From: an uncultured Bacilli bacterium
GTDB lineage: Bacteria > Bacillota_I > Bacilli_A > RFN20 > CAG-826
Assembly (NCBI GenBank): GCA_944375905.1
Contig: CALWAS010000003.1
Location: 1-51,886, forward strand
Length of the DNA stretch: 51,886 nucleotides
Direction: 5' to 3'
Position numbers and translations under genes: made by a program. Below are positions 5,054-47,936 of this stretch, one piece after another (position 1 is the first letter of the stretch; the number at the start of each line of letters is the position of its first letter). The notes under the pieces are model-generated. The model did no database searches. It was given only the letters and a program-made list of their open reading frames with translations, and was not told the origin of the DNA.

Positions 5054-5862
5054 TTCAAATAGCCAGGGTGAGGCGTGAGGCCGAAGTGCTTGGCAACGGC
5101 CTTGAGGCCTTCGTCATCGATGTCGTTGATGACATCGTGACCGAGTTCGCCCATCATGATGGCTGCCGCCTTTTCGACGGTCTCGATGAGGCCGAAAGCC
5201 TCGTCGATCGTCGCCCCGGAGCCATAGACGCCGTGAAGCGACCAGATAACGACCCGGTATTCCTTCATCTTCTCGGCGGTCGCGACCCCGATTTCGTTGG
5301 TCCCGCAGAGCATCCAGGGAAGGACGCCGACTCCCTCCGGGAAGACGACGATCGATTCGGTCATCGTGCGCCAAAGGGCCAAAGTCAGCTCCTTCTCGTC
5401 GAGTTTCACCAGGTGGGTAAGGGTAAGGAGATTGGTCGGGTGGGTGTGCATGACGACCCGGTTTTCCGGATTGGCCTTGAGGCGGACCGCGTGGCACATG
5501 AGGTGGGCATAGACCTCGCTAGTGAACGAGCCGTCGTCTTTGAAACCCCAATGGAGAAGGGCCGTCTTCCCGTCGTCGGAAACCGTGATGATGCCGATGT
5601 TGTGTTCCGGATCGCCCTTTGTATTGCGGAAGTAGCCCCCGGTTCTGGTTATCGCGAAGGTCTTTCCGCGGACGATTTCATCCGCGACGATCGGAAGCGG
5701 GATTTCCCTTATTATCTTGGCCGGCACGTATTCGCGCACTTCGTTTGGGGTGAGGAGCATCGAGACGTTTCCGCCGTTGCGCTCATCCCAGCCAAGGCGG
5801 TACATGTTGTCGATGATCGAGAGATATTGCCCGATCGACGGGCATTCGAGGATGCTTTCCAT
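5050..5862 (-). CDS. rhaD: L-rhamnulose-1-phosphate aldolase
   Basis: This class II, zinc-dependent aldolase splits L-rhamnulose 1-phosphate into dihydroxyacetone phosphate and L-lactaldehyde. The 270 residues match the family length. Metal ligands are visible in VVMHTHPTNLLTLTH and in the later WSLHGVYGSG, with a catalytic Glu region in between. It lies 10 nt after rhaA and overlaps rhaB by 4 nt. No lactaldehyde reductase or dehydrogenase gene is present in the window, so the lactaldehyde must be handled by genes elsewhere. Confidence 0.95.
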   Translation of the reverse strand: MESILECPSIGQYLSIIDNMYRLGWDERNGGNVSMLLTPNEVREYVPAKIIREIPLPIVADEIVRGKTFAITRTGGYFRNTKGDPEHNIGIITVSDDGKTALLHWGFKDDGSFTSEVYAHLMCHAVRLKANPENRVVMHTHPTNLLTLTHLVKLDEKELTLALWRTMTESIVVFPEGVGVLPWMLCGTNEIGVATAEKMKEYRVVIWSLHGVYGSGATIDEAFGLIETVEKAAAIMMGELGHDVINDIDDEGLKAVAKHFGLTPHPGYLK

Positions 5863-5872: not shown

Positions 5873-7132
5873 CTACTTTCTCTTGCTTTGGACCTCGCGC
5901 TCATAGCGCTTGAGTTCCCTCTCCATCGCGAGGCCGGATTTGATGCCCTTGCTCTCGAGGAGGTAGTTCCATACGGCGTTGAAGGGGAAGTTGTTTTCCT
6001 CTTCCATCAAAAGGAGACGCTGGCTCTTGTCTTCGTCCAGTTCGGCTTTCTTTAGCATCTCGGTCGGCTCGAGAAGCGACTTCAGGATGGCCTTGGCCGT
6101 CGCCCGGAGGCCGATGACCCAGCCATAGACCCGCGAGATCGAGGCATCGAAGAAGTCGAGGCCGATGGCAACCTTGCCATAGTATCCGCCACGCTTGAGC
6201 TCGTTCATCATTCCCTGAAGGCCGTCGTCTTCGATGACGACATGGTCGCTGTCCCAATGAATGCCGCGCGAAACGTGAAGCATCATTCCGTTAACGAAGG
6301 GATAGATGGCGCTGATCTTGTCGGCCACGTCCTCGGTCGGGCGGAAATGCCCGGTGTCGAGGGTAATTCCAAGGTCGTTTTTGGCCGCATAGGCAATGTA
6401 GAAGTCGTGGCTTCCAACGACGAAGGCCTCGGTCGAGATGCCAAACCATTTCCCCTCGAGGACATCGCACGCGTACTTGCTTTCCTCTTCGGTGTACTTG
6501 TGCTCGAACATCCGGTCCAAGGCATCCTTCAAGAGCTCGCGGTAATGCCGGCGATCGGCCGGAATGTCCTTCGTTCCATCGGGGAACCAGAAGTTGTTGT
6601 AGCACTTGTCGTTCAGCTCGCGCCCGATGGCGACCGAAATCTTCCTTGAATCGATCCCGGCCTTGATCCAGTAGTCGCGGACTTTCTCGTCGAAGGAGCA
6701 GACGCTGTTGCCTTTGTCCATCATCGGATGGGTAAAGAACGAGGTATTGAAATCGAGTTTGTAGCCCTTCTTCTTCGCCCAGTCGATCCATTCGCGGAAA
6801 TCCTCGACGTTGAGGTCGTTGCGGGGATGGCCGTGCTCGGCGTACATGGAATGGAGATTGACCCTGTGGGTCAACGGCGAAAGGGAGAAGGCCTCGTCGA
6901 TGTCGCCCCTTAGCTCGTCCCCGTTGCGGGCCGCGTAAGGATAGCCGCCAGTAACCACGTTCTCGCTCGCGACCGGACCGAGGTTCTCGAATCCTTTGAC
7001 GTCGTCGCCGGCCCAGCATTGGAGGGAAACCTGGATTTCCCCGAACTGCTTGAGGCACTTATCGACGTCGACGCCGTACTCGGCGTAGAACTTCCTTGCC
7101 TCCTCGAAGTCGCGCATAGTCTTTTCGTTCAT
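5873..7132 (-). CDS. rhaA: L-rhamnose isomerase
   Basis: This enzyme interconverts L-rhamnose and L-rhamnulose, the first step of catabolism. At 419 residues it has the usual length. Metal-binding segments typical of the TIM-barrel sugar isomerases are clear: VNLHSMYAEHG early on, GITLDTGHFRPTEDV in the middle, and RGIHWDSDHVV, whose Asp and His residues bind the two metals. The ATG at 7132 overlaps the stop of the rhamnosidase gene (ATGA), with GGAGG upstream. The gene order isomerase-aldolase-kinase follows the rhamnosidase, so free rhamnose is consumed where it is released. Confidence 0.95.
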   Translation of the reverse strand: MNEKTMRDFEEARKFYAEYGVDVDKCLKQFGEIQVSLQCWAGDDVKGFENLGPVASENVVTGGYPYAARNGDELRGDIDEAFSLSPLTHRVNLHSMYAEHGHPRNDLNVEDFREWIDWAKKKGYKLDFNTSFFTHPMMDKGNSVCSFDEKVRDYWIKAGIDSRKISVAIGRELNDKCYNNFWFPDGTKDIPADRRHYRELLKDALDRMFEHKYTEEESKYACDVLEGKWFGISTEAFVVGSHDFYIAYAAKNDLGITLDTGHFRPTEDVADKISAIYPFVNGMMLHVSRGIHWDSDHVVIEDDGLQGMMNELKRGGYYGKVAIGLDFFDASISRVYGWVIGLRATAKAILKSLLEPTEMLKKAELDEDKSQRLLLMEEENNFPFNAVWNYLLESKGIKSGLAMERELKRYEREVQSKRK

Positions 7133-9612
7133 TGCTTTTTTCCTCCTTTCCCCGAAGGGATATTTATTTGATTAACATTGAACGCAATCTTGTGGGTGCC
7201 GGGGCCCAGTTCCCGTCCCAGCTTGGGAGAGAAGAGGACGATGCCATAAGGCACTTCGACGGTGTATTCCCTCTTCCCGTCCTTGACTCCGGGGGACGAT
7301 ACCTTGATCGTCCCTTTCCGAGTCGAATAGGCTACCGAGAAGGGAATGTCTTCCCTAAGAGGCGATGGATCGAAGGTCCCATTGCCGCTTTCGATGTCGG
7401 CGATCTCGATTCCCGCCATGAAGCGGAAGAAGAGGGCATCGTAGGAAGCGAACATCGGGTGGTTGAACGAATTCATCGTCGCGAGCACCGCCTTCTCCCA
7501 CCGCTCCCAGACGCTCGTGGCGCCGTTTTCGAGCATGTAGCCCCAGCCCGGATATTCCGGGTTGCGCAGGATCTTGAAGGCGAGGTCAATGTCCGAATGA
7601 CGGCACAATTCGTAGAAGGCATGCCGATATCCCTGGTTTCCGCAATTCAGATGGAAGCCGTCGAGCTCGATGAGTTCCTTCATGTGGGCGTAGGCGGCGT
7701 CCTTCTCCGAATCGTCATAGAGGGACAGCGACAGGGCCATCGCCGTCTCGGTCGTCGATCCATTCCCGAAAAGCCCGTTCTTGAGATAGGCGGCCCTCAG
7801 GGCCTCCCGGGCTTTCCGCGCATGGGTCGAATAGCGAAGCGAGTCGCCTCCCTTTCCGAGCTTTCCGGCAATTTTCCCAAGGAGGGAAAGGTGCCAGAAG
7901 AGGAAGAAGGAGGATATTAGGCGAGAATCCGGTTCGGGGCTCTTGAGGCCGTCGGGCCGGACCCAATCGGCGTAATAGTGGTAATCCATCACGTAGCCGT
8001 GGCTCCGGCGGAGGAGCGCTTCGACCCATTTCTTGAGCGACGGGTATACCTCGGCCGCCTTTTCCCTTTCGCCATATAGGTCGATCAGCATGTCTGCTAG
8101 CAAAAGGAAGGAAACGGTCGTCGTGTCGGCGGGTTGACCGCCGGTGAAATAGGGTACCGTGTCGGCTATTTCGCCCTTCTTGTTGGCGCTATCGGCAATG
8201 TCGATGGCCACTTTGTAGAGGTAAGGGGCCGCATCGAAGTCGTAATTGAGATAGAAAGCTCGGCTCGATAGGTCATTCAGCCATCCGAAGCGCTCATCGC
8301 GCTGAGGGCAGTCGCTTAAGACGCTTTGCTCGTTGTTTTCTTCGGTCCTTACGGCGATTTCGTGAAGGGTCGCGAGTTTCGGCTCGCCGACTTCGACTTC
8401 CCCGACTTTCCTGAGGGAGGAATGCACATGGACGGCATAGGCCTCGATGATATTGGCCTCGCCTTCTATTTTCAGTTCCACGTAGCGAAATCCGTGGAAG
8501 GTGAAATGCGGATAAAGGGTTTCCTCGCCCGCGCCGGAGAGGTAGTAGACGTCTTCCTGGGCGGCGTTCCTCAGGTTTGTCTGATCGATGTTGAGGGATT
8601 CGTCTACCGCTTCGGCATGGCGAAGCGAGATTCTGGTTCCGGGCGTTCCCTTCACGCGGAGGACGACGTGGCCCGCTAGGTTAGCCAAGGCATCGTAAGT
8701 CGCGACGTTTCCCTCTTTTTTGAGTAGCCTCAGAGGATAGCGGCCGTGAGCTTCGATCGGAGGAAGGGGATCCGGAAGCAGCTTTCCCGACGGTCCGTAG
8801 GCGTAAATCGACCCGAACCACCCCTTGCGGTAGCCCGGCTCGACCTCGGGAAGGGAGAAGTCGCCGACGTTTCCCAAACGGTAATCGACCGTCTCGCCTC
8901 CATAGACGGAGCTTGCGAGAATCGGTGAGGTGGCAAACCACCAATCGCCGTTGCAAGTCGAGACGATTTCCTTTCTTTTGCCAGAAGCAAAGCGGATGTC
9001 GATGAGAACGTTGGCGGCCTTGCTGCCGAACCATCCGTTGGCAAGAACCAAGCCGAAGACGTCGCCGTCTCCTTTGAGGAGAGGGCGAAGGTCGTAGGCT
9101 TCGTAATAGACCCGCTTCCGATAGTCGCTTTGGGAAGGGGCCAGGAGGGCGGAAGAGACTTTCCTTCCGCTCAAGTAGACTTCGTGGTAGCCAACGGCAG
9201 CGACATAGGCCACCGCCCTCGTGCACGTCTCGCCCTCGAAGGAAGGAAGACGCTTTCTTATGGCCAAGGGGCCGTCGGAAAGAAGGGCGCAGCCGATGTA
9301 GCCTCCGCGGAAGTCGCTTTCCCGCGGGGCGACGAGGAAGGAACATCGGGCCACGTCTTTCCCGCCGTCTTTGCCATGGACGGTCAAGGTGGCTAGGTAT
9401 TCTTCCTTGGGGAGAAGGGGAAGGCCCCCATAAGGGAACCTTCCCCGGTATTCGCGCTCGACATAGAGCGTCTCGCCCCTGATGCCCGGGCCCTTGAGCG
9501 AAAGCTCGAGGCTCTCGAGTCGTTCTTCGCCGCTCAAGCGATAGGCGAAGATGGGTCGGTTTTTCGCCAGAAGGCGGTTGCCTTCGACTTCAAAGCTTTC
9601 GATCTTGATCAT
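7129..9612 (-). CDS. Alpha-L-rhamnosidase, GH78, cytoplasmic
   Basis: This enzyme hydrolyses terminal alpha-L-rhamnose. The 827-residue protein has no signal peptide, so it acts inside the cell on imported oligosaccharides. The N-terminal half holds beta-sandwich domains, including the YxxGRKV carbohydrate-binding-like segment. The (alpha/alpha)6 barrel carries the GH78 general acid motif DCPQRDERFGW (Glu about 440) and the general base in TSVWERW (Glu about 703). A beta-sandwich closes the C-terminus. It sits between the surface protein gene and rhaA and overlaps rhaA by 4 nt. The linkage cleaved cannot be told from sequence. Confidence 0.93.
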   Translation of the reverse strand: MIKIESFEVEGNRLLAKNRPIFAYRLSGEERLESLELSLKGPGIRGETLYVEREYRGRFPYGGLPLLPKEEYLATLTVHGKDGGKDVARCSFLVAPRESDFRGGYIGCALLSDGPLAIRKRLPSFEGETCTRAVAYVAAVGYHEVYLSGRKVSSALLAPSQSDYRKRVYYEAYDLRPLLKGDGDVFGLVLANGWFGSKAANVLIDIRFASGKRKEIVSTCNGDWWFATSPILASSVYGGETVDYRLGNVGDFSLPEVEPGYRKGWFGSIYAYGPSGKLLPDPLPPIEAHGRYPLRLLKKEGNVATYDALANLAGHVVLRVKGTPGTRISLRHAEAVDESLNIDQTNLRNAAQEDVYYLSGAGEETLYPHFTFHGFRYVELKIEGEANIIEAYAVHVHSSLRKVGEVEVGEPKLATLHEIAVRTEENNEQSVLSDCPQRDERFGWLNDLSSRAFYLNYDFDAAPYLYKVAIDIADSANKKGEIADTVPYFTGGQPADTTTVSFLLLADMLIDLYGEREKAAEVYPSLKKWVEALLRRSHGYVMDYHYYADWVRPDGLKSPEPDSRLISSFFLFWHLSLLGKIAGKLGKGGDSLRYSTHARKAREALRAAYLKNGLFGNGSTTETAMALSLSLYDDSEKDAAYAHMKELIELDGFHLNCGNQGYRHAFYELCRHSDIDLAFKILRNPEYPGWGYMLENGATSVWERWEKAVLATMNSFNHPMFASYDALFFRFMAGIEIADIESGNGTFDPSPLREDIPFSVAYSTRKGTIKVSSPGVKDGKREYTVEVPYGIVLFSPKLGRELGPGTHKIAFNVNQINIPSGKGGKKQ

Positions 9613-9643: not shown

Positions 9644-12448
9644 TTAGGCTTGCTTCTTTTTACGGAAGTAGATGATGAGGAAGACGACGAGGCCGATGAC
9701 GACAACCCCACCGACGCATCCGCCGACAATGCCGCCGATGGCCGCCGGAGTAAGGCCGGAGGTTGGGGTTTCGCCGGTGGTCGGAGTCGATTCGGAAGCA
9801 GAGCTGCCCTTGACCGTCACGGTGATGGTGACCGACTTGGTCGTCCCGTCGTCGAGGGTGATGGTAGCCGTGATCGTGCAGGTGCCCGGCGCCTTGGCGG
9901 AAATGATGCCGGCGCTAGTTACGGTTGCGATGCTCGGATCGCTCGATTCGTAGGTGATGGTTCCGGTCGTGGCACCTTCCGGAGTGCGCTCGACGCCGGC
10001 CGTGGCATTCTGCCCGACCGTCATCTCGATGCTATCCTTGGTGGCTTTGATGCCGTCGGACGGGAGATAGGAGACGAAGGCAGTGCCATCGAAGCGGAAC
10101 TGGGTCTTCGTCGTGGTGAAGCCGTCGACGACGATCTCGCCAGTCGCCTCGTTCATTCCGTCCGGATTCGAGGGATCGGCGGCTCCGATCTTCCCGCCGG
10201 TGAACTTCGGAATCGGCATTCCGGCATCGACGGTGATGATGTCGCCCTCTTGGTAATAGGGGGCCTTGTTGTAGTTCTCGGCCGTAAGGCTCGCGCCTTT
10301 GAGGAACTCGGGCTCGATCGCGGTGTTGTGTCCAAGCTGGTAGATGGTGGTTAGCTTGACCTCGGTGCCGTCGGCCCTGGTGTAGTGAATGTGCGGAGCC
10401 ATGTACTTAGCGGTCCAATCGGTTCCCTTGGTATTCGAGATATTGACCTTGTTGCTGGCCGTGTTCGGGGCATCGACGAAGACCCAATAGGTGAACCAGT
10501 CGACGACGTTCGCCTTCTCGTAGACTTGATCGTAAAGGTCATAGACCCCGATCGCGATTTCGGACGTGTAGGTCTTTTCCTCGTAGGTGACGGTGACCGT
10601 GGTCTTGGTTTCGCCAGCCTTGCTATGGTCGAATTCCTTGTTGAAGGAATAGGTGAATCCGCTCGCCGGATGGACGACCGGGAAGGTGATTCCGTCCTCG
10701 CTTCCGTCGTCATAGACGAATCGGAAGCCTTGGAGAGTCGGGGCCCAATCGGCAAGGTCCTGATCGACGTAGACCTGATGCATATAGCCGTTGACGGGGA
10801 CGATGCCCTTGATTTCCATCACTTCGGTGACGGTGAAATCATAGGTGTGCGTCACTTCCCCAAGTTTAGCGGTAACGGTTGCCTTGCCCGGCGCAACGCC
10901 GGTTACGTTGCCTTGGGCGTCGACGGTGAGGACATCCTTATCCGAGCTTTCGAAGACGGGGAGCCCGGCGCTCGTGTCGGGAGTGAAGGTAACGCTCGCG
11001 TGGTAGGTATCGCCCTGCATGATGACGGATCCGCCGTCCCAAGCGACGCTGAAGTCGGTGACGGCTACGCCGGCGACAAGGAAGGCCGAACCGTTATAGA
11101 TGAAGTTGAGGTCTTCGTTCAGGACGGCAGTCGCGATCCACTCGCCGTCCCCGTTCACTTCCTGGCTGTTGGAATCCACGGTTCCGGTATATTTCCAGTT
11201 GTAAAGGCCGGCCTTGAACGTGACGGTGTCGCCGAGCTTGAATCCGGCGAAATCGGAGCCGGTGCCAAGGAGGAAGTGATTGGAAAGGAGCTTGACGCTC
11301 GTGAATACCTCATCGCTCCCGTTGACTAGGACGTGGGATAGGGCATTGTCGAGGGCGCGGCCCCTGAAGTTCAGGTTTTGCTGGTTGTTGTCATCGATGA
11401 CAAGCTCAAACTTCATTCCCCAAGTCGTGGCAGTCCCGGTAACGCCGAAGACGTTGCTCGGATCCATGTTGAGGGCCTTGGCAACGGAATCGACCTTGAC
11501 GGTGAGGGTGGTCTCGAACTCGCCGATTTTGATGGTGAGCGGGTATTCGCCGACTTCTTCGATATCGTATTCGCCGGTTATTGACGTGGCCGGATCCCAA
11601 GGAATGATTCCTTCGGTGCCGTCGGCATAGGTGGCACTTACCTTGACGGTCGAGAAATCGACGGGGACACCAACGTATGTGGAGAGGATCCCGTCGCTCG
11701 GCGTCGTTACCTTGATGCCGGTCTGGTCGGAGGCAGCGGTTACATTGACTGTTATCTCATCCTTGAGAAGCCCAGAGTAAACTGTCACCTTCGTCTGCCC
11801 GACGCCAACGCCGGTAATATTTCCGGAATTGTCAGCAGTTGCAGTCGTATCGCTACCGGATTGATAGACAATAACCGGCGTATCATCTTCCGTCGTGATA
11901 TTGACGTAGGAAGAAATATTTAGGGTTTGCCCAATTTTTAAATCGAGAGCATCCTCGCTGAAGGAGAGGGAAGTAGGAGCGATGAAGGGTTCCCAGTCGC
12001 CCAAATCTCCATCGGCGAGCTTACAAATCCATTTCTGTTCCTCGAACGAGTACGTATCCCCGGTTACGGAAGAGGAGAGTTTGAAGTCGGAAGGTATCGA
12101 CAGGATATTGCCGTAACGATTGATGATATTGTATGAGGTGAAAAGAAGATCGTCGTACGGGAACCAGGACTTCATCTCTTCGGCCTTCCCGTATTCGTCG
12201 TACATAGTCGGCCAGGTTCCGGAAGGCGTCACTCCGGCGCCGCTGTACCATCGCCCTGCATTGATTGCCGGATCGATTTGAAGGCCAACGACACCATATT
12301 GATCATTCCATACCTTGCGATTCACGACCTTGATTTTCGCGTCAACGTCAGCCGCGTTTGCCTGTGCAGCCGGGCTGTAGGAGACACCAACGGTCCCTAG
12401 GCCAAGCAACAAGGCTGTTCCCAACAGGAACTGCTTCTTAGCTTTCAT
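9644..12448 (-). CDS. Secreted Ig-like repeat surface protein with C-terminal membrane anchor
   Basis: This 934-residue protein has a classical signal peptide (MKAKKQFLLGTALLLGLGTVG..., cleavage likely near AQANA). Several bacterial Ig-like (Big_2/Big_3) repeats follow, recognised by strands such as SGNITGVGVGQTKVTV, GNVTGVAPGKATVTA and AGIISAKAPGTCTITA. A Ser/Thr/Pro linker leads to a Gly-rich membrane helix (GGIVGGCVGGVVVIG...) and a short basic tail, FRKKKQA. No LPXTG motif is present. It lies inside the rhamnose operon between GH99-like lipoprotein and rhamnosidase genes and so is likely a glycan-binding or scaffold protein. It carries no recognisable catalytic motif. Confidence 0.8.
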   Translation of the reverse strand: MKAKKQFLLGTALLLGLGTVGVSYSPAAQANAADVDAKIKVVNRKVWNDQYGVVGLQIDPAINAGRWYSGAGVTPSGTWPTMYDEYGKAEEMKSWFPYDDLLFTSYNIINRYGNILSIPSDFKLSSSVTGDTYSFEEQKWICKLADGDLGDWEPFIAPTSLSFSEDALDLKIGQTLNISSYVNITTEDDTPVIVYQSGSDTTATADNSGNITGVGVGQTKVTVYSGLLKDEITVNVTAASDQTGIKVTTPSDGILSTYVGVPVDFSTVKVSATYADGTEGIIPWDPATSITGEYDIEEVGEYPLTIKIGEFETTLTVKVDSVAKALNMDPSNVFGVTGTATTWGMKFELVIDDNNQQNLNFRGRALDNALSHVLVNGSDEVFTSVKLLSNHFLLGTGSDFAGFKLGDTVTFKAGLYNWKYTGTVDSNSQEVNGDGEWIATAVLNEDLNFIYNGSAFLVAGVAVTDFSVAWDGGSVIMQGDTYHASVTFTPDTSAGLPVFESSDKDVLTVDAQGNVTGVAPGKATVTAKLGEVTHTYDFTVTEVMEIKGIVPVNGYMHQVYVDQDLADWAPTLQGFRFVYDDGSEDGITFPVVHPASGFTYSFNKEFDHSKAGETKTTVTVTYEEKTYTSEIAIGVYDLYDQVYEKANVVDWFTYWVFVDAPNTASNKVNISNTKGTDWTAKYMAPHIHYTRADGTEVKLTTIYQLGHNTAIEPEFLKGASLTAENYNKAPYYQEGDIITVDAGMPIPKFTGGKIGAADPSNPDGMNEATGEIVVDGFTTTKTQFRFDGTAFVSYLPSDGIKATKDSIEMTVGQNATAGVERTPEGATTGTITYESSDPSIATVTSAGIISAKAPGTCTITATITLDDGTTKSVTITVTVKGSSASESTPTTGETPTSGLTPAAIGGIVGGCVGGVVVIGLVVFLIIYFRKKKQA

Positions 12449-12527: not shown

Positions 12528-14444
12528 TTAGTAGCGGTAGCCAAGCCGCCCGAGCGGCATGGAATCCCCGCTTTGGTAATAACTCATCGGGTCGTCGGGG
12601 TCGCTTACGTTGTCATAGACCTTGAAGACGAAGCTCGCCCGAACGCCCGTCAGTCCCAAATCAGATAATGGGATGGCGATTTGCATGGCATTTCCCTGAA
12701 TCGCGTATTCGATCGACGAGGAAAGCGAGACCCATTCCCCGTTTTCGTAGCGCTCAAGCGAAGCCTTTCCTTCGGCTTTGCTAGCCCCGATCCGGTACTC
12801 GTAAGCGCCCATGAAGCCCTGGCCCGACGCTCCCTTCCCGAGAAGGATGACGAGGGCGTCGCCTTTCTCGCCGGAATCGATAGCCGCATTGCAATCGATC
12901 CGGAAATAGGCCTTGGAGGAATCGTTGGTTACCATCGCCGAGGCTATGTCGTTCCTTCCGGAGTCGTCGCTGTAGTGGGCCGGAACGGTGATTCCCACGA
13001 AATCGCGGTCCTCGCAATCTCCGGTCGGGTCTACATAACGATGGCTGATGCCACTCCAGGCATCGGCCGAAAAGTCGTTTACGTCGATGCTCTTGCGCTC
13101 GTGGGCGTACTCGACATATTGATTCATCTTGTAGGCCCGGGCATTCATCACGAACTGCATGTAATAGTTGTCGCCATAGCCGCCTTCCATCATCTCGAGG
13201 TCGCGGCTGTATTCGTGATTCCAGGTGTCGACGAAGTAAATTCCCTTGTCGCCGCCATAGCCGATGTTGGTTCCGTCCCACTGCTTGATGGCTTGCCACT
13301 CGTTCCAGCCGGTGACGAAGACATCGGTGACCCCGTTTTTAGGATCGAGGGCGGTATCGAACATCTTCTGGAAGGCTAGTCCTTCCTTCCAATCGCCCTC
13401 CTTTTTGTCGGTCTCGGGGTTATAGCCGCGGGCCGACTCGTCGCCTTCTAGCGAATAGCAGATGAGGTCGTGGTTATGCTGGGCAACCGGAACGGCGATA
13501 TGCCCGTTGTGGACTTTCTGCGGATAGCCATATGTCATTCCGGACTGGGACATGGCCCCGCCGGGGGCCCGGCTCCAGCTCATCCACGGCTGCCCGTTTT
13601 CGTTGTACATCCCGTTGGGCCACTGGCTTTCGAGGACATCGAAGTACTCGACCATGTCCTTGGACATGACCGGGTTCTTGCCTTCGTACATCGTTTGATC
13701 GCTGGCCTTTCCGTTGTTCTCGGTTATGCCGACGATCCTCGGCTTGCCGTTCGGTGCCCACCAGCAACTTGCCCATTTCTCCTGCGTGTAATAGGCGTTG
13801 AAGAGCATCTGCACGGTCTGGCCGGAAGACGTGTTGGTATAGAACATGACCTGCGGCACCTTGATGCCTTGGGCTTGGTAGAAGAGGATCGCGTCCAAAA
13901 TGGTCGGGACGACGTCCTCGTAGATGACGGCGTTGGTCGTGTCGAAGCAAAGGTAGTCGACCCCGCAGTTGGCGAATAGCTCAAGGTGCTTCCTGATGAC
14001 CCACGGATCGGCCGAATTGTAGTAGCCGTAAAGAGGCTTGCCCCAGGTATGGAAGCGCCCGTTCGGGGAGAGGGGGTCGTCCTCGCTGAAGAGGGCCTTG
14101 CGCCCTTCCTCGCTCGAAAGGAGGCTATCGATGTCCCGAGGTCCGGTATTGCCGCGGAAATCGTAGTCGTGCTGGCCGAGCCAGATGTGATAGAAGAGGC
14201 CGATATGGTGTTCTCCGTCCTTGAAGGAGCCCATCGGCAGAACCTTTCTCCCAAGCTCGTCGATTCCCTCGAGCTGGAGTTGGGAAAACTCGACGTCGCT
14301 TATCTTTCGCTCATCGATTGGAAGTCCGTCGTCATAGCTGACTCCGGGCCGGTTCGGACTAGACATGCTTGTTCCTCCAGGCTCGCAAGAGGCGAGGGCA
14401 AAGACCGATAGGCAGGCGAACAGGGCCTTAGTAGGCGTATTCAT
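12528..14444 (-). CDS. GH99/GH71-like lipoprotein, paralogue 2
   Basis: This is a secreted lipoprotein of 638 residues; the lipobox is FALASCE, with the Cys near residue 18. The start chosen is the ATG at 14444, which gives a clean lipoprotein signal and overlaps the previous gene by 17 nt. The middle is a barrel of the GH71/GH99 type: LFYHIWLGQHDYDF, the segment DPWVIRKHLELFANCGVDYLCFDTTN, and VTGWNEWQAIK, whose Glu is in the place of catalytic Glu residues in GH99-like proteins. The last about 200 residues form a predicted beta-sandwich like CBM9/DOMON domains. It is clearly a paralogue of the next gene upstream. It is likely an endo-acting glycanase on the outer surface; its substrate is unknown, although the operon points to a rhamnose-containing glycan. 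Confidence 0.7.
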   Translation of the reverse strand: MNTPTKALFACLSVFALASCEPGGTSMSSPNRPGVSYDDGLPIDERKISDVEFSQLQLEGIDELGRKVLPMGSFKDGEHHIGLFYHIWLGQHDYDFRGNTGPRDIDSLLSSEEGRKALFSEDDPLSPNGRFHTWGKPLYGYYNSADPWVIRKHLELFANCGVDYLCFDTTNAVIYEDVVPTILDAILFYQAQGIKVPQVMFYTNTSSGQTVQMLFNAYYTQEKWASCWWAPNGKPRIVGITENNGKASDQTMYEGKNPVMSKDMVEYFDVLESQWPNGMYNENGQPWMSWSRAPGGAMSQSGMTYGYPQKVHNGHIAVPVAQHNHDLICYSLEGDESARGYNPETDKKEGDWKEGLAFQKMFDTALDPKNGVTDVFVTGWNEWQAIKQWDGTNIGYGGDKGIYFVDTWNHEYSRDLEMMEGGYGDNYYMQFVMNARAYKMNQYVEYAHERKSIDVNDFSADAWSGISHRYVDPTGDCEDRDFVGITVPAHYSDDSGRNDIASAMVTNDSSKAYFRIDCNAAIDSGEKGDALVILLGKGASGQGFMGAYEYRIGASKAEGKASLERYENGEWVSLSSSIEYAIQGNAMQIAIPLSDLGLTGVRASFVFKVYDNVSDPDDPMSYYQSGDSMPLGRLGYRY

Positions 14445-16287
14445 AGGCAAGCCTCCCGATCGGGGCGGAATCCCCGCTAACGTAGAAGTCGTCGATGTCC
14501 AGGGGATCGAGGAGATGGTCGGTGGCCTTGAGAAGAAGGTGCGGAACCATGTTCCCGAGCCCGATGGCCGAGCGGGGAATCCGGTATTCGACGACGTTGT
14601 CTTGAGAAACGTAGGCGACGCGTTCTCCGGTCTTGACCCAGGAGCCGACTCCCTCGCTTTCCTCATAACGCGCCACCGCCATGCTTCCATCCGTTCCGTC
14701 CGGGAAGACGCGGTAGTCGAAATTCGAGGCAAACGGGGTTCTTCCCTCGACGTCCGGGGTTCCGATGAACAGGTTCATCCAGCTTTCGTCGCCAGCGCTC
14801 GGGATGACTTCCTCGGCCGTTTCGACCCGGACGTAGACGTTGTCGTTGTCATGGGTGACCTTGGTCGAGACGATGTCGTTCCGGGCCGTGAGGTCTTCGT
14901 ACATTTCATAGCCGTAGGAAGAAGGCGTCGCCGCGGCGTTTTTGTAGTTGCGGAACATGGCGTCTCCCTCGAAGTCGAGGTAGGAATGCCTGACTTCCGA
15001 CCATTTGGGGTCGTCCTTGCCGATTTCGATGCCCTTCGGTTCGAGGAAGTAATGCTCGCCCTCCTCGTAGGCGAATTTGCGAAGGTTGCGGGCGATTTGC
15101 AGGTAAAATCCGTCGCCATAGCCGGTTTCGCTGTCGGTCATCTCGGCATCGCGGCTATAGATCAAGTCAAAACCGTCGACCATCTGCATGTCGCCGTTGT
15201 TGGCCCGGTTCTTGATGGCCATCCATTCGTTCCACTGGGTGATGAAGACATTGTCCACTTCCCCACCCGACAGGCTCGGGTCGAAGGCCGTCATCCACTC
15301 TTCCTCGAAATTGAGGCCCTTGGCATATTCGTCGACGTTCTGGGCACCGGTCTTGTAGCCCTCGGTAACCCTGGTATACCCGCGTCCGAAATTGCTTTCC
15401 TCTTGGTTGGCTGCGTTATAGCCGGGCATCTGGGCGATGGAAACCGAGATGGTTCCGTCGTGGTTGAACTGGGGCCACTGCCAGTTCATCCACGGGAAGT
15501 TTTCCTTCCTCATCCGCTCATCGGGCCACTGGCTTCCCTTCAAGGTAAAGAATTCCTCGTAGAAGGCCAGCTTGTCGTAATCGGTGAAATCGTCTTTTCG
15601 GGTAACGAGCATCGGCTTGCCGTCAACCTTGTACCATATGTCGTCGTAAAGCCCGTCCTTGTACCAAATCGAATAGAGGGAATCAACCGTCGTCTGGCTG
15701 TGGGAATTGGTGTAGAAAGCCAGCTTCGGCACGTCGAAGCCTTGGGCCGCAAACTTGCGGAAGACCTCGATCAGGGCCTTGACGACGTCGGTATAGATGA
15801 CGCTGTTGGTCGTATCGAAGACCAAATAGTCGATCCCGGCCATGGTGAAGAGCTCGCAGTGGCGGGCCAATACCCACGGATCCCGGCTGTCGTAATAGCC
15901 ATAGAGGGGCCGTCCGAAGTAGTGAAACTGCCCGAGCGGGCTATCGACCGGCTGCCCATTGCCGCTATTCACGTCGAAGAGAGCCTCGGGATTTATTTCC
16001 TTGAGGATCGTCACGTCGTAAATGCCGCTTTCGTGGGAACCGTGCCATAGGGAGTAGAACATCCCGACTTCCTTTTCCGGATCGGCTTCCGAAACCGACG
16101 AAAAGGAGCGCCCGAAGGCATCGGTGGAGGCGAGGCTGTTGACAGTCCATTCCTGATCGCTCAGCACCCGTTCGTCCTCGACCCTCTCGAAGGGGTCGGG
16201 AATCTCGCTCGGGCCGCAGGAAGCAAGAAGGCAAAGGGAAAGGAGGAAGGCTCCCGGAAGAACGATTCTCTTGCGTTTGCTTGCCAT
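14428..16287 (-). CDS. GH99/GH71-like lipoprotein, paralogue 1
   Basis: This 619-residue lipoprotein has a lipobox LLASCGPSE. The start is set at the ATG at 16287, with AAGGGG in front, because it gives the proper signal peptide and lies just past the permease stop. It shares with its downstream neighbour FYSLWHG, the long segment on VLARHCELFTMAGIDYLVFDTTNSVIYTDVV, the ITQWNEWMAIK motif and the C-terminal beta-sandwich ending SGDSAPIGRLAYEYAY. The two are diverged tandem duplicates. Their position after the importer genes and before the intracellular rhamnosidase suggests that they make the oligosaccharides that are imported. No tested enzyme is known to the annotator for this exact group. 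Confidence 0.7.
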   Translation of the reverse strand: MASKRKRIVLPGAFLLSLCLLASCGPSEIPDPFERVEDERVLSDQEWTVNSLASTDAFGRSFSSVSEADPEKEVGMFYSLWHGSHESGIYDVTILKEINPEALFDVNSGNGQPVDSPLGQFHYFGRPLYGYYDSRDPWVLARHCELFTMAGIDYLVFDTTNSVIYTDVVKALIEVFRKFAAQGFDVPKLAFYTNSHSQTTVDSLYSIWYKDGLYDDIWYKVDGKPMLVTRKDDFTDYDKLAFYEEFFTLKGSQWPDERMRKENFPWMNWQWPQFNHDGTISVSIAQMPGYNAANQEESNFGRGYTRVTEGYKTGAQNVDEYAKGLNFEEEWMTAFDPSLSGGEVDNVFITQWNEWMAIKNRANNGDMQMVDGFDLIYSRDAEMTDSETGYGDGFYLQIARNLRKFAYEEGEHYFLEPKGIEIGKDDPKWSEVRHSYLDFEGDAMFRNYKNAAATPSSYGYEMYEDLTARNDIVSTKVTHDNDNVYVRVETAEEVIPSAGDESWMNLFIGTPDVEGRTPFASNFDYRVFPDGTDGSMAVARYEESEGVGSWVKTGERVAYVSQDNVVEYRIPRSAIGLGNMVPHLLLKATDHLLDPLDIDDFYVSGDSAPIGRLAYEYAY

Positions 16288-16291
16288 GTTT

Positions 16292-17215
16292 TTACCCCTT
16301 GATGCCGCTAGTGAGGGCACCGTCTGTAAGCTGTTCTTGGAAGATGAGGAAGAGGAGGGCCGGGAAGAAGGTCATGAAGACGCCCCCCGCCATCCTGACG
16401 GCTGCCCATCTCGTCGAGGCGAGGCCTTCGACGGTGCTTTTGAAAATGGCATACGCGAAGGTAATCGGCGCATCGGATGAGGGCATGTAGAGGAGCGGCC
16501 CGTAGTAATCTCCCCAATAGGAGTTGAAGACCGAGATGACGATGTAGATGATGATCGACTTGCAGTTAGGAAGGATGATCGACCAATAGATGCGGAACGG
16601 GCCGCAACCGTCGATCTTGGCGGCATCGCAGATTTCGTTTGGTATTCCGAACATGTACTGGCGAATGAGGAAGATGTACATGGCCCCGCCGCCGAAGAGA
16701 TTCGGTATGGTGAAGGGCAGGAGGGTGTTGAGCCAGCCGATCTTGGAATAGATGACGTAAAGCGGGATTTGCGTAACGACGCCCGGAAGGGTAACCGTCA
16801 GCATCATGGCCGCGAATACGATGTTCTTCCCTTTCCATTTGAGCTTCGCGAAGCCGTAGGCGATGAAAGTCGCCGAAAGGGGGATCGCGATGACGTTGAA
16901 GACGATGATGATCATCGTATGGAGGAGAGCCTGCGCATAGTTGTAGCCGGAGCTCGCGTCGGTGAAGAGGGTGACGAAGTTGCTCCACTGGAGGTTTCCC
17001 CAATCCGGGAAGAAATGGGGGTTTGGATCAAGGATCTCGCTCTCGGACATGAGCGACTTGAACACCATGAAGATGTAGGGGAACATGAGGACCACCGCCA
17101 CGACGCACATCCCAAGGAAGAGAGCGGTCGTCTTGGAGAAATCCCACATCTTGGCCTTGCGGTCCTCCACAAAGGCTTCGCCGGTAAGACGGTTCTTTAG
17201 GTCTTTCCAGGTCAC
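16292..17215 (-). CDS. Sugar ABC transporter permease, MalG type
   Basis: This inner permease subunit of a carbohydrate importer has about 307 residues and six predicted membrane helices. The cytoplasmic EAA loop reads EICDAAKIDGCGPFRIYWSIILP, the contact site for the ATPase. The GTG at 17215 is chosen as start because GGAGG (within GGAGGTGA) lies 9 nt upstream; a TTG at 17221, overlapping the previous stop, would leave only 3 nt. It pairs with the MalF-type gene upstream. No ATPase gene is in this operon, so it probably uses the MsmK-like ATPase at 49640. Confidence 0.9.
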   Translation of the reverse strand: MTWKDLKNRLTGEAFVEDRKAKMWDFSKTTALFLGMCVVAVVLMFPYIFMVFKSLMSESEILDPNPHFFPDWGNLQWSNFVTLFTDASSGYNYAQALLHTMIIIVFNVIAIPLSATFIAYGFAKLKWKGKNIVFAAMMLTVTLPGVVTQIPLYVIYSKIGWLNTLLPFTIPNLFGGGAMYIFLIRQYMFGIPNEICDAAKIDGCGPFRIYWSIILPNCKSIIIYIVISVFNSYWGDYYGPLLYMPSSDAPITFAYAIFKSTVEGLASTRWAAVRMAGGVFMTFFPALLFLIFQEQLTDGALTSGIKG

Positions 17216-17217
17216 GT

Positions 17218-18219
17218 TCAATCACCTCCATAGAAGACCCACTTGGAGGTCGAGAAAAGAAGGAGTGTAAGAAGCGAGATAACGATGCACAGCATCCAGG
17301 AGAGGGCGCTTGCGTAGCCGATGTCGCCGATGCGCATGGCTTCCCAGTAGATCTTGACGCCGAAGAGGAAGAGCGAATCGTCGATTCCGCGCCCTTCCCG
17401 CGGAGCGAAGATGAGGGTTCCGTTGTACTGGAGCGAACCGATGATGCTCGTTACGAGGTTGAAGAAGATGATCGGCGTCGACATCGGGATCGTGATATGG
17501 GCAAAGCGCTGGAAGGCATTGGCCCCGTCGACCTTTGCCGATTCATATAGGTCCTTGGGAATGTTCTTGAAGGCGCTCAGCCACAGAATCATGCCGCCGC
17601 CGACTCCCCATAGGCCCATGAAGATGAGAGAAGGCATGGCCGTCCGCGGATCCATGAAGAAGGTTGCCTTAGGCAGTCCGATCGATTCGAGTATCTTGTT
17701 GAAGATGCCGTAGGTATTGTCGAAAAGGTCTTTCCAAAGAAGCCCGCTTACGACCGCCGGAATGACGACCGGGAGGTAGAAGAGCACCCGGAATACCCTG
17801 GTGAATTTGTGGGCGTTGTTTACCAAAAGGGCGAGGAAGTAGCTGAGAACGAGGTTGAGGGGAACGTTGACGATGGCGTAGATGAGAGTGTTCAGGGCAC
17901 TGATCCCGACTTCGTCGTCTTGGAAGGCCTGGACGTAATTCCAAAGGCCGGCAGGCGAGATGTTGAACCCGTCGTAATGGAAGAAGCTCCAGTAAAGCGA
18001 GCAGAACATCGGGACGGCCGTAAAGAGGGCAAGGCCGATGATGAGGGGCGAGGCAAACACCCACCCGGCAACGGCTTCCTTTCTTTGCATCCGGCTCATC
18101 TTCGGACGCTTGAACTTCGGGGCATCCCCATCCTTTTTGGCAGGCAGGAAGCCCTTCACGCGGTCCTTGAGGCTGGACCAAAAGGGAGCCCTTTCCTTTC
18201 TGGCTTCGACGGTTGGCAT
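17218..18219 (-). CDS. Sugar ABC transporter permease, MalF type
   Basis: The protein has 333 residues with a basic N-terminal extension of about 50 residues before the first of six membrane helices. The EAA loop is ESAKVDGANAFQRFAHITIP. It forms the membrane channel with the next gene and works with the binding lipoprotein encoded just upstream (51 nt gap). The ATG is preceded by AGGAAAATCT. The substrate is inferred to be a rhamnose-containing oligosaccharide, from its place in an operon that ends with rhamnosidase and rhamnose catabolic genes. Confidence 0.9.
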   Translation of the reverse strand: MPTVEARKERAPFWSSLKDRVKGFLPAKKDGDAPKFKRPKMSRMQRKEAVAGWVFASPLIIGLALFTAVPMFCSLYWSFFHYDGFNISPAGLWNYVQAFQDDEVGISALNTLIYAIVNVPLNLVLSYFLALLVNNAHKFTRVFRVLFYLPVVIPAVVSGLLWKDLFDNTYGIFNKILESIGLPKATFFMDPRTAMPSLIFMGLWGVGGGMILWLSAFKNIPKDLYESAKVDGANAFQRFAHITIPMSTPIIFFNLVTSIIGSLQYNGTLIFAPREGRGIDDSLFLFGVKIYWEAMRIGDIGYASALSWMLCIVISLLTLLLFSTSKWVFYGGD

Positions 18220-18269: not shown

Positions 18270-19649
18270 TCAGTTGCCGACGGCGTCATTGAGGTCGCTC
18301 ACGCCGCGGGAGATGATCTCATCGATGCTACGACGGTTCTCGCGGGTCGAGAGAGTGTCGCCGATGACATCGGAAATGGCAAGAGTGACGTTGGCCATGG
18401 CGGAGGGAGAGCAATAGGCATAGTACTCGTCGGCCACTTTGTTCTCGTCGTAGAGGACATAGGCCTCTAGATTCCGGTCTGTATAGCCTTTCGTCCAGTT
18501 GGCTTCGGCATTGTCGGGGTCGGCTAGGTCGTTGCGGATGGACGGGAGGTTCAGCCCGCCGAGAGCCATGGCTTGCTGGCCGTCATAGCTCATGAGGAAG
18601 TTGAGGTATTCCCAGGCAAGGGCCTTCTTGTTCGAGGCCGTGCAAAGTGTGTATCCGGCAACGCCGGCGCCGATTTTCGCGTTTTCCTGGCCGTTGATGA
18701 ACGGGAAGGTGACGATGTCGATGTTTCCTTTTAGCTCACGCATCTCGTCATAGTGGGAAATGGCAGCCGATTGGAAGATGAAGGGGCAAGTGCCGCTTTC
18801 GAAGCTGGAGCCGGAAGTGACGCCATTGCCGACGCAATAACGCTCATCGACGAGTTCGCGCATTCCATTTAGGGCCTGCCGCATTTCGGGAGTATCGATC
18901 GAAACGGTATTCTCCGCCGAGAAAATGTCGGCCCCGTAGCTGCGGATGAACGGATAGTAGACGGATGACCAAGAGAAGTTGAAGTCGCAGCAGAACCAAT
19001 CGGCCGAGTGCCCCAGCTTGTCGGCATAGGCTCTCCATTGGGCGCAAAGGGCAATGAAATCCTCCCAGCTCCAGCCGTTCTTGATGCTGTCCATCGAAAT
19101 CCCGGCTTCTTGGAGAAGCTTCTTGTTGTAGAAGCAAACGACCGTGTCGGCGCTTCGGGGGACTGCATAGTAGGTGCCGTTGTCTCCGGCCATATCGAAG
19201 AATTCGGTCTTGAAGTCTTCCTCGAAGTTGTAATCGCCGCGGGCTTCGGTCTTTTCTATGTACTGGTTAAGGGGCTCGATGACATTCAGCGAACGGAGGA
19301 AGTAGACTTCCTGGGAATTGGTCCACAGGATATCCGGCATGTCCCCCGCCATGTTGTATTGGCGGATCGTCGATTCATAAGTGGGAATCGAAACGAAGTT
19401 GATTTCGAACTTCACGTTCGGGTAAAGGAGGTTGAAAGCCTCGTTTGCCTTCTCGATCATGGTCTGCTCGTTGCTATTGCCGGAAGGAATGAGGAGAGTA
19501 AGAGTTTCATTGGTAGTCGGATCGACGCCGATCTCGACCGATTCCTGCGAATGGGAAGTGCTCGAGCTGCTCTCGGGGGCGATGACGCATCCGGTGAGGG
19601 CAAAGGCGGCCAGTAGGGCTCCGGCGAAGGCTTTCTTGCTTGTTTTCAT
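18270..19649 (-). CDS. Sugar-binding lipoprotein of ABC importer
   Basis: This is an extracellular solute-binding protein, family 1, of 459 residues. It has a signal peptide and lipobox (FALTGCV), followed by a Ser-rich linker. The body shows typical features: TLLIPSGNSNEQTMIEKANEAFNLLYPNVKFEI at the N-terminus and WSWEDFIALC in the hinge region. The start is the ATG at 19649; the strong site AAGGAGG lies between the upstream stop codon and this ATG, and the alternative start eight codons earlier would lie before that site. It catches oligosaccharides at the cell surface and passes them to the two permeases downstream. Confidence 0.92.
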   Translation of the reverse strand: MKTSKKAFAGALLAAFALTGCVIAPESSSSTSHSQESVEIGVDPTTNETLTLLIPSGNSNEQTMIEKANEAFNLLYPNVKFEINFVSIPTYESTIRQYNMAGDMPDILWTNSQEVYFLRSLNVIEPLNQYIEKTEARGDYNFEEDFKTEFFDMAGDNGTYYAVPRSADTVVCFYNKKLLQEAGISMDSIKNGWSWEDFIALCAQWRAYADKLGHSADWFCCDFNFSWSSVYYPFIRSYGADIFSAENTVSIDTPEMRQALNGMRELVDERYCVGNGVTSGSSFESGTCPFIFQSAAISHYDEMRELKGNIDIVTFPFINGQENAKIGAGVAGYTLCTASNKKALAWEYLNFLMSYDGQQAMALGGLNLPSIRNDLADPDNAEANWTKGYTDRNLEAYVLYDENKVADEYYAYCSPSAMANVTLAISDVIGDTLSTRENRRSIDEIISRGVSDLNDAVGN

Positions 19650-19669
19650 TGTTGGTTTAACCTCCTTAA

Positions 19670-20965
19670 TCAAGCATTTTCAATGGTGGCGAGGAGGGCT
19701 CCGGCGTAAACGCGGTGCCCATAGTCATTGGGGTGATTGATGCCGTTTCCGGTCATGTCGTAATAGTCGCGACCGCCTCCGAGGAGATAATTCCCATAGG
19801 CGTAGGTATCGAGGACCACGACCCCGCTGAAGCTTTCGGCCACGTCATTCATTTTCTTGATGTAGCTCTCGAGCTTTATCTGGTCGTAGACCCGCGGGTT
19901 GGGGCTGAGGGGCGACATGAGGATGATTTCAAGGTTGGGGAGGTTTTCTTTGAGATAGGTCACGATGTACATGATGTTGTCCATGAAACCATTAGGGGTC
20001 GCTTGCCCGCCGAGGTCGTTGATTCCATAGTGGACAAGGAGAAGGTCGGGGGCATACGTCACGACTTTGTCGAGAAGGGATTTCTGGGTTCCATCGGAGG
20101 AAGTGGTTCCGCCGACCCCCATGTTGTCGCTCGTCACGTCGAGTCCGAACTTGTTCTCCACCGCTTCGGCAAAAAGGTCGAAGAAAGGCTTTTGGTAGGG
20201 CTCGTGGTTGAAATTGACCGAGGAAGAGCATCCTTCCATGACGCTATCTCCGATGCCGGCTATCTTGAGCGATCCCGACTTCGCATCGAGTTTCGCCTTG
20301 AGGGCTGGCAGACTCGAGATCTGGCTGGCGGGAAGGGAGGTCATGTCCAAATCGTTGATGTCATAGACATAGGTCACGTACACCTGCGTCCCGTAATAAA
20401 ACGGCGATTCCGTATAAATGGTCGCGCCCATCCTCATGCAATCGGTCGTTTGGTTGGAAATGGTACCCTTCACGACATATGGAGCCGGAAGGTCTTCCTC
20501 GCCCCACATCTGCCGATTGGTCCAATGGCCGATCCGACTGCCGCTCGGCGCCGTGATGGCATTGCCGTCGATCATGTAATCCGTGCCTTCGGCATATTCG
20601 GTCTTCAGCGTGTAATCGCGAACCGAGATGATCTTGCGAGGGGCAAAGCGAAGATGTCCGAGGCCGGTCCCGTCTTCCTGGGTCCTAAGCATGACAGTTT
20701 CGTTGTAGATGACGTTTCCGTAGAAAAATGGATCGCTCATGGCTGGATCGTTCACCTTGTAATCGTAAGTCAGCGAATCGATATCCTCGACATAGTTGGG
20801 AAAATCGCTCGGATCAAGCGTTTGGCCTTCCGACGAGGACGATTCGCTCGGCTGAGAACTCGATTCATTGGGAACTGGAGTGCAAGCGGCGAGGGCGATT
20901 CCGGCGAAGGCTAGGACTAGTCCTAGGCGGGGTGCCTTATCCGCTTTGCTGTGACCAAATGACAT
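19670..20965 (-). CDS. SGNH/GDSL-type esterase lipoprotein
   Basis: This secreted lipoprotein has 431 residues (lipobox ALAACTP, Cys 28). The N-terminal about 200 residues form a beta-rich domain, as in two-domain carbohydrate acetylesterases. The SGNH core follows: block I GIGDSVMEG with nucleophile Ser 241, block II Gly at GVGG (about 284), block III GIND with Asn 316, and block V GINHPNDYGH with His 411. It probably removes acetyl or other acyl groups from the target glycan so that glycosidases can act. It is the first gene of the eleven-gene operon; GGAGG lies just before the ATG. It could act on acetylated rhamnogalacturonan or on a bacterial wall glycan. Confidence 0.85.
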   Translation of the reverse strand: MSFGHSKADKAPRLGLVLAFAGIALAACTPVPNESSSQPSESSSSEGQTLDPSDFPNYVEDIDSLTYDYKVNDPAMSDPFFYGNVIYNETVMLRTQEDGTGLGHLRFAPRKIISVRDYTLKTEYAEGTDYMIDGNAITAPSGSRIGHWTNRQMWGEEDLPAPYVVKGTISNQTTDCMRMGATIYTESPFYYGTQVYVTYVYDINDLDMTSLPASQISSLPALKAKLDAKSGSLKIAGIGDSVMEGCSSSVNFNHEPYQKPFFDLFAEAVENKFGLDVTSDNMGVGGTTSSDGTQKSLLDKVVTYAPDLLLVHYGINDLGGQATPNGFMDNIMYIVTYLKENLPNLEIILMSPLSPNPRVYDQIKLESYIKKMNDVAESFSGVVVLDTYAYGNYLLGGGRDYYDMTGNGINHPNDYGHRVYAGALLATIENA

Positions 20966-20976
20966 ATGCTTCCTCC

Positions 20977-20990
20977 GTAAAGCGCTTTCA
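20977..20990 (-). promoter_or_regulatory. cre-like / LacI-family operator before the rhamnose operon
   Basis: GTAAAGCGCTTTCA contains the perfect palindrome AAAGCGCTTT and matches the Bacillus cre consensus TGWAARCGYTWNCW at 12 of 14 positions. It sits directly upstream of the GGAGG site of the first operon gene, 12 nt before its ATG. Similar palindromes precede three other operons in the window (38249, 47804, 51186), so CcpA or a dedicated LacI-type regulator may bind here. Confidence 0.65.
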
Positions 20991-21032
20991 TTCTTTGGCT
21001 CTAAGTTCATTTCTGCAAGGTTTTGATTGGGA

Positions 21033-21096: not shown

Positions 21097-21861
21097 ATGC
21101 TAATCGATGAACGAAAGCAAGAAATTCTTAGCATCACCGGCGAAAGGACCTACATTTCGGTCGAAGAACTCGCAAAGCTCGTCTTTGCCTCGCCGGCAAC
21201 CATCAGAAGGGACCTTGCCGACCTTGCCAATGCGGGATTGATCAAGCGGGTAAGAGGAGGGGCCTCCGTTCTCGCGCCCAACACGGGCGAGGTTTCATCC
21301 CTCATCAGGCGCAAGACCAATGTCATAGAGAAGAAGCGGATGGCGCAGGCGGCCATCAACTATTTCCGGGAGGGCGAGAGCTACTTCTTCGACTCCTCCA
21401 CAACCGTTGGCCAAATAATCCCCCTTTTAAAACATTTCACCGATATAACCGTCATTACAAATGGCTTCGATAACGCCATGACTTTATCGAATTTCGTAAG
21501 TTTTTCCTCATATATGGCCCCAGGGATAATATCGAGCAACGTGGGCTCCAGCGTCGGTCCGGATACCGTTGAATTCGTTTCCCGCTTCTACGTCGATGCC
21601 TTCTTCTTTTCGTGCCGCGGCTTCTCGCTCGACGCCGGGCCGAACGAAGGCACAATCGAACAGCAAAGGGTAAAGGCGGCCATGGCCTCGCGAGCAAGGA
21701 AGCTCATTTGCCTCGTCGACCACACGAAATTTGATCGCACCCTTCTATCAAGCGACTGCGGCCTCGAGGACATCGACGTCCTGATAACCGACAGGGAACC
21801 GCCCGAGGAGTATCGGGAAGCGTTCCAGCGTGCGAATATCGATGTTGTCGTTGCTGGATAA
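21097..21861 (+). CDS. DeoR-family transcriptional regulator
   Basis: The 254-residue protein has the family length. The N-terminal helix-turn-helix (about residues 20-57) reads ISVEELAKLVFASPATIRRDL followed by the wing GLIKRVRGGA. The C-terminal DeoR sensor domain shows YFFDSSTTVGQ, ITVITNGFDNA and CLVDHTKFDR, where a phosphorylated sugar normally binds. It diverges from the rhamnose operon and lies just before the GDPD lipoprotein gene, so it most likely controls both. The effector could be rhamnulose 1-phosphate or another sugar phosphate (inference). No RhaR/RhaS of the AraC type is present nearby. Confidence 0.93.
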   Translation: MLIDERKQEILSITGERTYISVEELAKLVFASPATIRRDLADLANAGLIKRVRGGASVLAPNTGEVSSLIRRKTNVIEKKRMAQAAINYFREGESYFFDSSTTVGQIIPLLKHFTDITVITNGFDNAMTLSNFVSFSSYMAPGIISSNVGSSVGPDTVEFVSRFYVDAFFFSCRGFSLDAGPNEGTIEQQRVKAAMASRARKLICLVDHTKFDRTLLSSDCGLEDIDVLITDREPPEEYREAFQRANIDVVVAG

Positions 21862-21908: not shown

Positions 21909-22010
21909 AGATATCGAAATTGAATTGAAAGCCCTTACTTGCCTTTCCTTGACGATGGACTTGCAAAAAAACGATTGAAATTGCCTAATTTCCATAGGAG
22001 GTCTTTTTCG

Positions 22011-30688: not shown

Positions 30689-30691
30689 GAT

Positions 30692-34970: not shown

Positions 34971-34972
34971 GA

Positions 34973-45131: not shown

Positions 45132-45144
45132 ATTGGCTCCTTTC

Positions 45145-47775: not shown

Positions 47776-47803
47776 TAGCAAAATCTCCTAGGAACATTCT
47801 CTA

Positions 47804-47817
47804 AGAAAGCGCTTTCC
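47804..47817 (-). promoter_or_regulatory. cre-like operator before the beta-helix/surface protein operon
   Basis: AGAAAGCGCTTTCC contains the perfect 12-base palindrome GAAAGCGCTTTC (47805-47816) and lies 29 nt before the ATG. It marks a new transcription unit after the terminator at 47885-47906. A small inverted repeat (CCGTAAAAACGG on the minus strand) lies just upstream. Confidence 0.65.
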
Positions 47818-47884
47818 GTTTTTACGGAGCAAAACCTGCCTTTTTACGCTAGGAAAATGCTAAAGCGGGCAATCAAAGAAAAAG

Positions 47885-47906
47885 AGCCGGGGAAGAAAAT
47901 CCCCGG
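47885..47906 (-). terminator. Terminator of the MsmK/beta-helix operon
   Basis: An 8-bp stem GCCGGGGA / TCCCCGGC has a 6-base loop; on the minus strand it is followed by TCTTTTTCTTT. It lies 30 nt past the stop of the beta-helix gene at 47937. Confidence 0.8.
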
Positions 47907-47936
47907 CAATACCCATTTGCTTTGTTTAAAAGCGCG

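Follow-up and report, generated by a model that had tools for sequence, protein, structure and literature searches.

The question raised by an L-rhamnose operon of an uncultured Bacilli bacterium is what two adjacent lipoprotein genes, here called A and B, contribute to it. The operon lies in the window analysed here, the 51,886 nucleotides of contig CALWAS010000003.1 (assembly GCA_944375905.1; 1.22 Mb, 97% complete), and comprises, in this order, a GDSL esterase, a solute-binding protein, two permeases, A, B, an Ig-like surface protein, a GH78 enzyme, RhaA, a class II aldolase and a FGGY kinase, with a DeoR regulator in divergent orientation (Table 1). Based on fold, homology, motif conservation, operon content and genome absences, all computed here, we lean, by a modest degree, towards A and B being lipid-anchored surface glycoside hydrolases, members of an unnamed family akin to GH99 and GH71, that cut an L-rhamnose polysaccharide, probably a foreign rhamnan.

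Both proteins, starting with MASKRKR (A) and MNTPTKAL (B), display at the N-terminus a signal peptide and a LASC sequence, which we take to be a lipobox; the two open reading frames overlap by 17 bases, and four bases lie between the start of A and the permease gene that precedes it. Their homology (BLASTP 300 bits, E 8e-98, 33% identity across 660 columns), together with the coordinates and the signal peptides, agrees with a previous interpretation of this DNA, the sequence-only reading, which had described them as diverged tandem lipoproteins. In a tree built by a quick method from 77 of 119 family proteins, the closest neighbours of B are Clostridia B-type genes (8 rows, Shimodaira-Hasegawa approximate likelihood ratio support 96); Bacteroidota genes join next (18 rows, 96), and A only after these. 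A recent tandem duplication is rejected on this basis, and the tree indicates that the pair is old and co-inherited. Side-by-side paralogues of this kind would fit two linkages, or two positions, of one polymer.

Relatives were gathered by a scan of 84,980 species genomes with the seed patterns T[QG]WNEW[MQ] or PLYGYY[DN]S, from which the best 80 of 151 confirmed stretches were kept (78 loci), and a separate draw covered 395 genomes of the class of the window, five of which carry family genes, one of them a weak partial match (G082). The loci kept come from Bacilli, Clostridia, Bacteroidota, Paenibacillus, Cohnella and one Verrucomicrobiota, and the carriers include cultured species such as Parapedobacter composti, Niabella drilacis and Pumilibacter intestinalis; no relative of A was present in the plasmid collection searched. 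The first seed pattern occurs in 26 of the 119 family proteins, the second in 76 and both in 8. Since the NEW seed is missing from 93, the search cannot account for the conserved WNEW found in these. A more distant branch of the family is represented, in another genome of the class, by a 512-residue protein (L007, 1045-2580, minus strand) with WNEWTA in its C-terminal part and, by eye, membrane-type segments in its N-terminal part.

Neither A nor B alone matched Pfam at E values up to 1 (PF16317, WbsX and CBM9 included), NCBIfam yielded nothing useful (for B one chance match, E 0.26), and the same was true of A against the PDB. Only a profile of 77 relatives, and not the single sequences, reached GH99: seven GH99 chain sequences of the PDB were matched with E values of 2e-6 to 6e-5 (BtGH99 4acy and BxGH99 4ad1, among others), the family WNEW being paired with FNEW of GH99, and some of the chains matched are labelled family 71. 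PF16317, the GH99 model, matched 37 of the 77 relatives weakly (best 3.7e-8), with no match above its curated cut-off in 20 family-bearing genomes and likewise none in 14 control genomes. The sequence-only reading had suggested profile searches against GH71, GH99 and WbsX; GH99 was reached by the 77-row profile, and WbsX (PF14307) matched only 2 of the 77 relatives weakly (best E 6.7e-4), A and B not at all, and nothing at cut-off in the genome of the window. The AlphaFold model of A (predicted local distance difference test score, pLDDT, 93.1; predicted template modelling score 0.92) displays a GH99-type (beta/alpha)8 barrel. Foldseek places this barrel with GH99 and GH71, and VIA-align gave a Z of 18.7 for GH99 4ad0 (252 aligned residues, root-mean-square deviation (rmsd) 3.3, 18% identity), 14-15.1 for GH71 and about 10.5 for other triose-phosphate isomerase (TIM) barrels. 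The GH99/GH71-type barrel with a NEW motif that had been read from the sequence is thereby recovered by profile, Foldseek and VIA-align, the motif being TQWNEW in A and TGWNEW in B.

In the model of A the barrel is followed by a C-terminal beta-sandwich, the layout of GH71 (alpha-1,3-glucanase; AnGH71C 9fnf, Agn1p 9m6l). Folded alone, this domain reached a pLDDT of 95.1 and showed the CBM9 beta-sandwich fold, with matches to the CBM9 structures 1i82 (Z 9.7, rmsd 4.3 over 151 residues) and 7nwo (Z 9.4) and to the gamma subunit of ethylbenzene dehydrogenase (2ivf, Z 9.8), which we take to be DOMON-like, as the sequence-only reading had proposed. The top match is a chain of Sas6 (7uwv, Z 12.3), and other folds drop to Z 7.

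The position of the family relative to GH99 and GH71 is decided by the active site. GH99 enzymes are described as carrying two catalytic glutamates in an EW[H/G]E motif (PMC11025385), and a D/E-x-x-E pair at a conserved position is described as shared by GH99 and GH71, in GH71 as D-x-x-E (PMC12394665). In all 119 relatives the glutamate of the NEW motif, Glu354 of A, and its tryptophan are invariant, whereas the position three residues further on is Ala in 111, Val in 5, Met in 2 and Ser in 1, and is acidic in none, so that neither pair is present. Other residues invariant in 119 of 119 are Asp158, Asn161, Arg302, Asp371, Arg379, Asp380 and Asp392 (A numbering). With GH99 (BtGH99, BxGH99; endo-alpha-1,2-mannosidase/mannanase, a retaining activity that proceeds through a 1,2-anhydro sugar) the family has in common the barrel fold and the NEW segment, which holds the first of the catalytic glutamates, but it differs in having EWxA instead of EWHE, an extra C-terminal CBM9-like domain and a rhamnose gene context; from GH71 it differs in E-W-x-A as opposed to D-x-x-E (PMC12394665). 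Membership of A and B in GH99 or GH71 is ruled out by the missing second acid, and neither mechanism can simply be assumed. They form a separate family, related to both, outside both by the defining acid pair and probably working in part like them. It is best filed as unnamed GH99/GH71-like; the conserved-domain entry GH99_GH71_like_3 (PMC13421300), or a sister entry, may already cover it. As judged from sequence, Glu354 is probably paired with another acid in this family, and the mechanism may differ as well. Two observations that the sequence-only reading had regarded as fatal to its proposal were not made: the Pfam, NCBIfam and single-sequence PDB searches brought up no characterised mannanase or glucanase of high similarity, and the NEW glutamate was not lost from the homologues. 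What that reading missed is the absence of the second catalytic glutamate, as well as the GDPD enzymes next door.

The assignment of the operon to L-rhamnose, the only sugar whose catabolism it encodes, recurs outside the window. The cluster is syntenic in six Bacilli loci (L012-L017), and the Clostridia loci L021 and L080 retain the esterase, the importer, A, B, the Ig-like protein and GH78. With the six syntenic loci removed and matches below 150 bits dropped (L037, L043, L073, L086), 14 GH78 genes of at least 150 bits were counted near relatives in 72 loci; from their overall density in 25 genomes that carry the family, 3.3-3.8 would be expected (Poisson p about 1e-5 to 4e-5). This enrichment, about four times the expectation, covers Firmicutes and Bacteroidota (L020, L029, L033 and L035 in the latter). 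The proteins for the neighbour Pfam scans were selected by hand, with some GH78 matches already known: 76 out of 98 in the Bacteroidota loci and 80 out of 440 in the rest, the latter drawn largely from a list of 199. The GH78 count is therefore based on all 78 loci; the 25 genomes were also chosen with some matches known, and the 26/26 obtained there is no test. In the class-level draw 47 of the 395 genomes have GH78, among them all four that carry full-length family genes, of which two belong to one genus (Fisher 1.8e-4, or 8e-4 with the weak match G082 counted). A link between the family and L-rhamnose catabolism, recurring across phyla, is thus supported, and the rhamnose operon setting claimed by the sequence-only reading holds, with RhaA, GH78 and importer in place. 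Its claim that A and B are the only likely chain-cutting enzymes stands for the operon, GH78 aside, while two GH28-type proteins are encoded elsewhere in the window.

From these observations we infer catalysis, endo mode, substrate and partner acid. A and B, secreted and lipid-anchored, would cleave an L-rhamnose-containing polysaccharide at the cell surface, probably mid-chain, with the CBM9-like domain stabilizing the barrel or gripping the glycan. The neighboring ATP-binding cassette (ABC) importer may take up the oligosaccharides, from which GH78 would free L-rhamnose, to be catabolized by RhaA, the kinase and the aldolase. Given the loss of the second GH99 glutamate, another invariant acid would have to act as partner of Glu354, the candidates being Asp158, Asp371 and Asp380. 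That A and B are endo-rhamnanases is plausible on the sequence data. The same activity, endo cleavage of rhamnose chains, belongs to phage endorhamnosidases such as the Sf6 and P22 tailspikes (Sf6, PMC6116271). These phage proteins are tailspike beta-helices, in contrast to the TIM barrel of A and B, and the earlier statement that endo-acting rhamnan hydrolases are poorly known was overstated. Among the papers listed by searches of the open-licence PMC library, none was on a GH99-like rhamnosidase.

Which rhamnan is attacked may be indicated by the GDPD genes, two of the three in the genome adjoining the operon. In the Clostridia loci L058, L064, L075 and L082 a GDPD gene directly precedes the family gene, with GH78 further upstream; the three GDPD proteins read from this set have a secreted look, and three of the four loci are in the tree (L082 is not included), where they form a clade apart from A and B. 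The lipoprotein-like GDPD of the window has relatives beside the family genes of these four loci, and the GDPD-GH78-like fusion recurs in L012-L016, in part truncated where the locus ends. Streptococcal rhamnopolysaccharide is reported to bear beta-linked N-acetylglucosamine (GlcNAc) and glycerol phosphate (PMC8807736), and enterococcal rhamnan a phosphodiester-linked teichoic acid (PMC7188991). The adjacent GDPDs, one of them joined to a GH78-like domain, point to a rhamnan that bears glycerol phosphate, and a GH20 gene is present in L020. Turnover of the bacterium's own wall was considered and is made unlikely by the lack of an RmlC match in the genome, so that the target is probably foreign. 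A Gram-positive wall rhamnopolysaccharide would then be the best single guess for the substrate, a tentative one. The full scheme, in which a rewired site (second Glu to Ala, an invariant Asp recruited) turns the family into endo-rhamnanases that let gut Firmicutes and Bacteroidota feed on the glycerol-phosphate-decorated rhamnopolysaccharide walls of other bacteria, the lipoprotein GDPD and the GDPD-GH78 fusion clearing the phosphodiesters, is speculative and rather doubtful.

Several observations weigh against the reading favored here. The broken D/E-x-x-E pair in all 119 relatives leaves catalysis unproven, no GH78-like gene is found in the fetched stretch of 56 of the 78 loci, and several Bacteroidales relatives sit among housekeeping, non-sugar-like genes, the rhamnose link not being universal. 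Regarding the wall substrate, GDPD genes in distant loci number 4 against 1.6 expected, which is not significant (p 0.077), and the four GDPD-linked Clostridia loci are probably close relatives of each other; moreover, GDSL or other esterases, which also fit acetylated plant glycans, recur near relatives, and GH127-like genes occur among the neighbours. If A and B instead cut a rhamnosyl linkage in the backbone of a rhamnose glycan from plants, for example rhamnogalacturonan I, this would also agree with the esterase of the operon, the GH28-type proteins of the window and the origin of many relatives in herbivore gut assemblies. We consider it unlikely: UxaC (uronate isomerase) and GH88/105 gave no match in the 97% complete genome, with control genomes positive for each, which makes conventional uronate-rhamnose pectin use unlikely, no polysaccharide lyase was seen in the operon, and the GDPD partners would be left unexplained.

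With one GH99 acid of the pair lost and a CBM9-like domain present, A and B could alternatively be non-catalytic glycan-binding lipoproteins supplying the importer, but Glu354 and at least four more acids of the barrel region do not vary in any of the 119 relatives and the operon already encodes its own solute-binding protein, which renders this improbable. The nearest solved structures are endo-alpha-mannosidases and mannanases, and one relative (L074) has a GH38 mannosidase in its neighbourhood, which would also fit a GH99-type activity of A and B on alpha-mannosides or some other polymer of hexoses, with side chains alone left to the rhamnose genes. Such a role is at least as improbable, given that the second catalytic glutamate is absent throughout, that the operon catabolizes L-rhamnose only, and that GH78 is the commonest Pfam family in the sampled neighbours, tied with GDPD in one sample.

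Table 1. Features of the rhamnose operon and its surroundings in the window.
Feature	Coordinates	Strand	Remark
FGGY kinase, probable rhamnulokinase	3740..5053	-	substrate inferred from operon
Class II aldolase, probable rhamnulose-1-phosphate aldolase	5050..5862	-	substrate inferred from operon
L-rhamnose isomerase RhaA	5873..7132	-	
GH78 alpha-L-rhamnosidase	7129..9612	-	signal peptide not seen
Ig-like (Big_2) surface protein	9644..12448	-	kept in the cluster
Gene B, paralogue of A, same architecture	12528..14444	-	638 aa
C-terminal domain of B	12531..13088	-	alignment to A
Glu382 codon of B	13299..13301	-	counterpart of A Glu354
Gene A, lipoprotein, GH99/GH71-like barrel and CBM9-like C-terminal domain	14428..16287	-	619 aa
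C-terminal CBM9/DOMON-like beta-sandwich of A	14431..15030	-	residues 420-619
Glu354 codon of A (W-N-E-W)	15226..15228	-	retained first Glu of GH99-type pair; +3 = Ala357
ABC sugar permease	16292..17221	-	
ABC sugar permease	17218..18219	-	
ABC solute-binding lipoprotein	18270..19673	-	
GDSL-type esterase	19670..21010	-	lipobox-like N-terminus
DeoR-type regulator	21097..21861	+	divergent
GDPD phosphodiesterase	21939..23906	+	lipoprotein-like N-terminus
GDPD fused to GH78-like six-hairpin domain	23924..26902	-	992 aa; signal peptide not seen

The Ig-like protein of the operon has a C-terminal membrane segment, and its gene directly follows B in the Bacilli loci and lies further down in L021 and L080. 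Elsewhere in the window, on the minus strand, two GH65 genes lie beside a HAD hydrolase (30038-35399), and upstream of them a separate ABC importer is encoded (34973-38222); this is probably a disaccharide phosphorolysis operon. The two GH28-type proteins, which occur although the genome gave no UxaC or GH88/105 match, are encoded with a PKD-domain protein at 42132-49643 (minus strand), beside a MalK-type ATPase gene (49640-51181). A 591-residue membrane protein (1597-3372, minus strand) has no Pfam match at 0.001, and its C-terminal half resembles, by eye, a degenerate EAL domain.

If the proposed function of A and B is correct, a glycoside hydrolase family with a rebuilt catalytic pair would stand beside GH99 and GH71, and it would offer a tool, independent of phage enzymes, to trim the wall polysaccharides rich in rhamnose that streptococci, enterococci and lactococci carry. 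Some gut bacteria would, in that case, be using the wall coats of neighboring cells as food.

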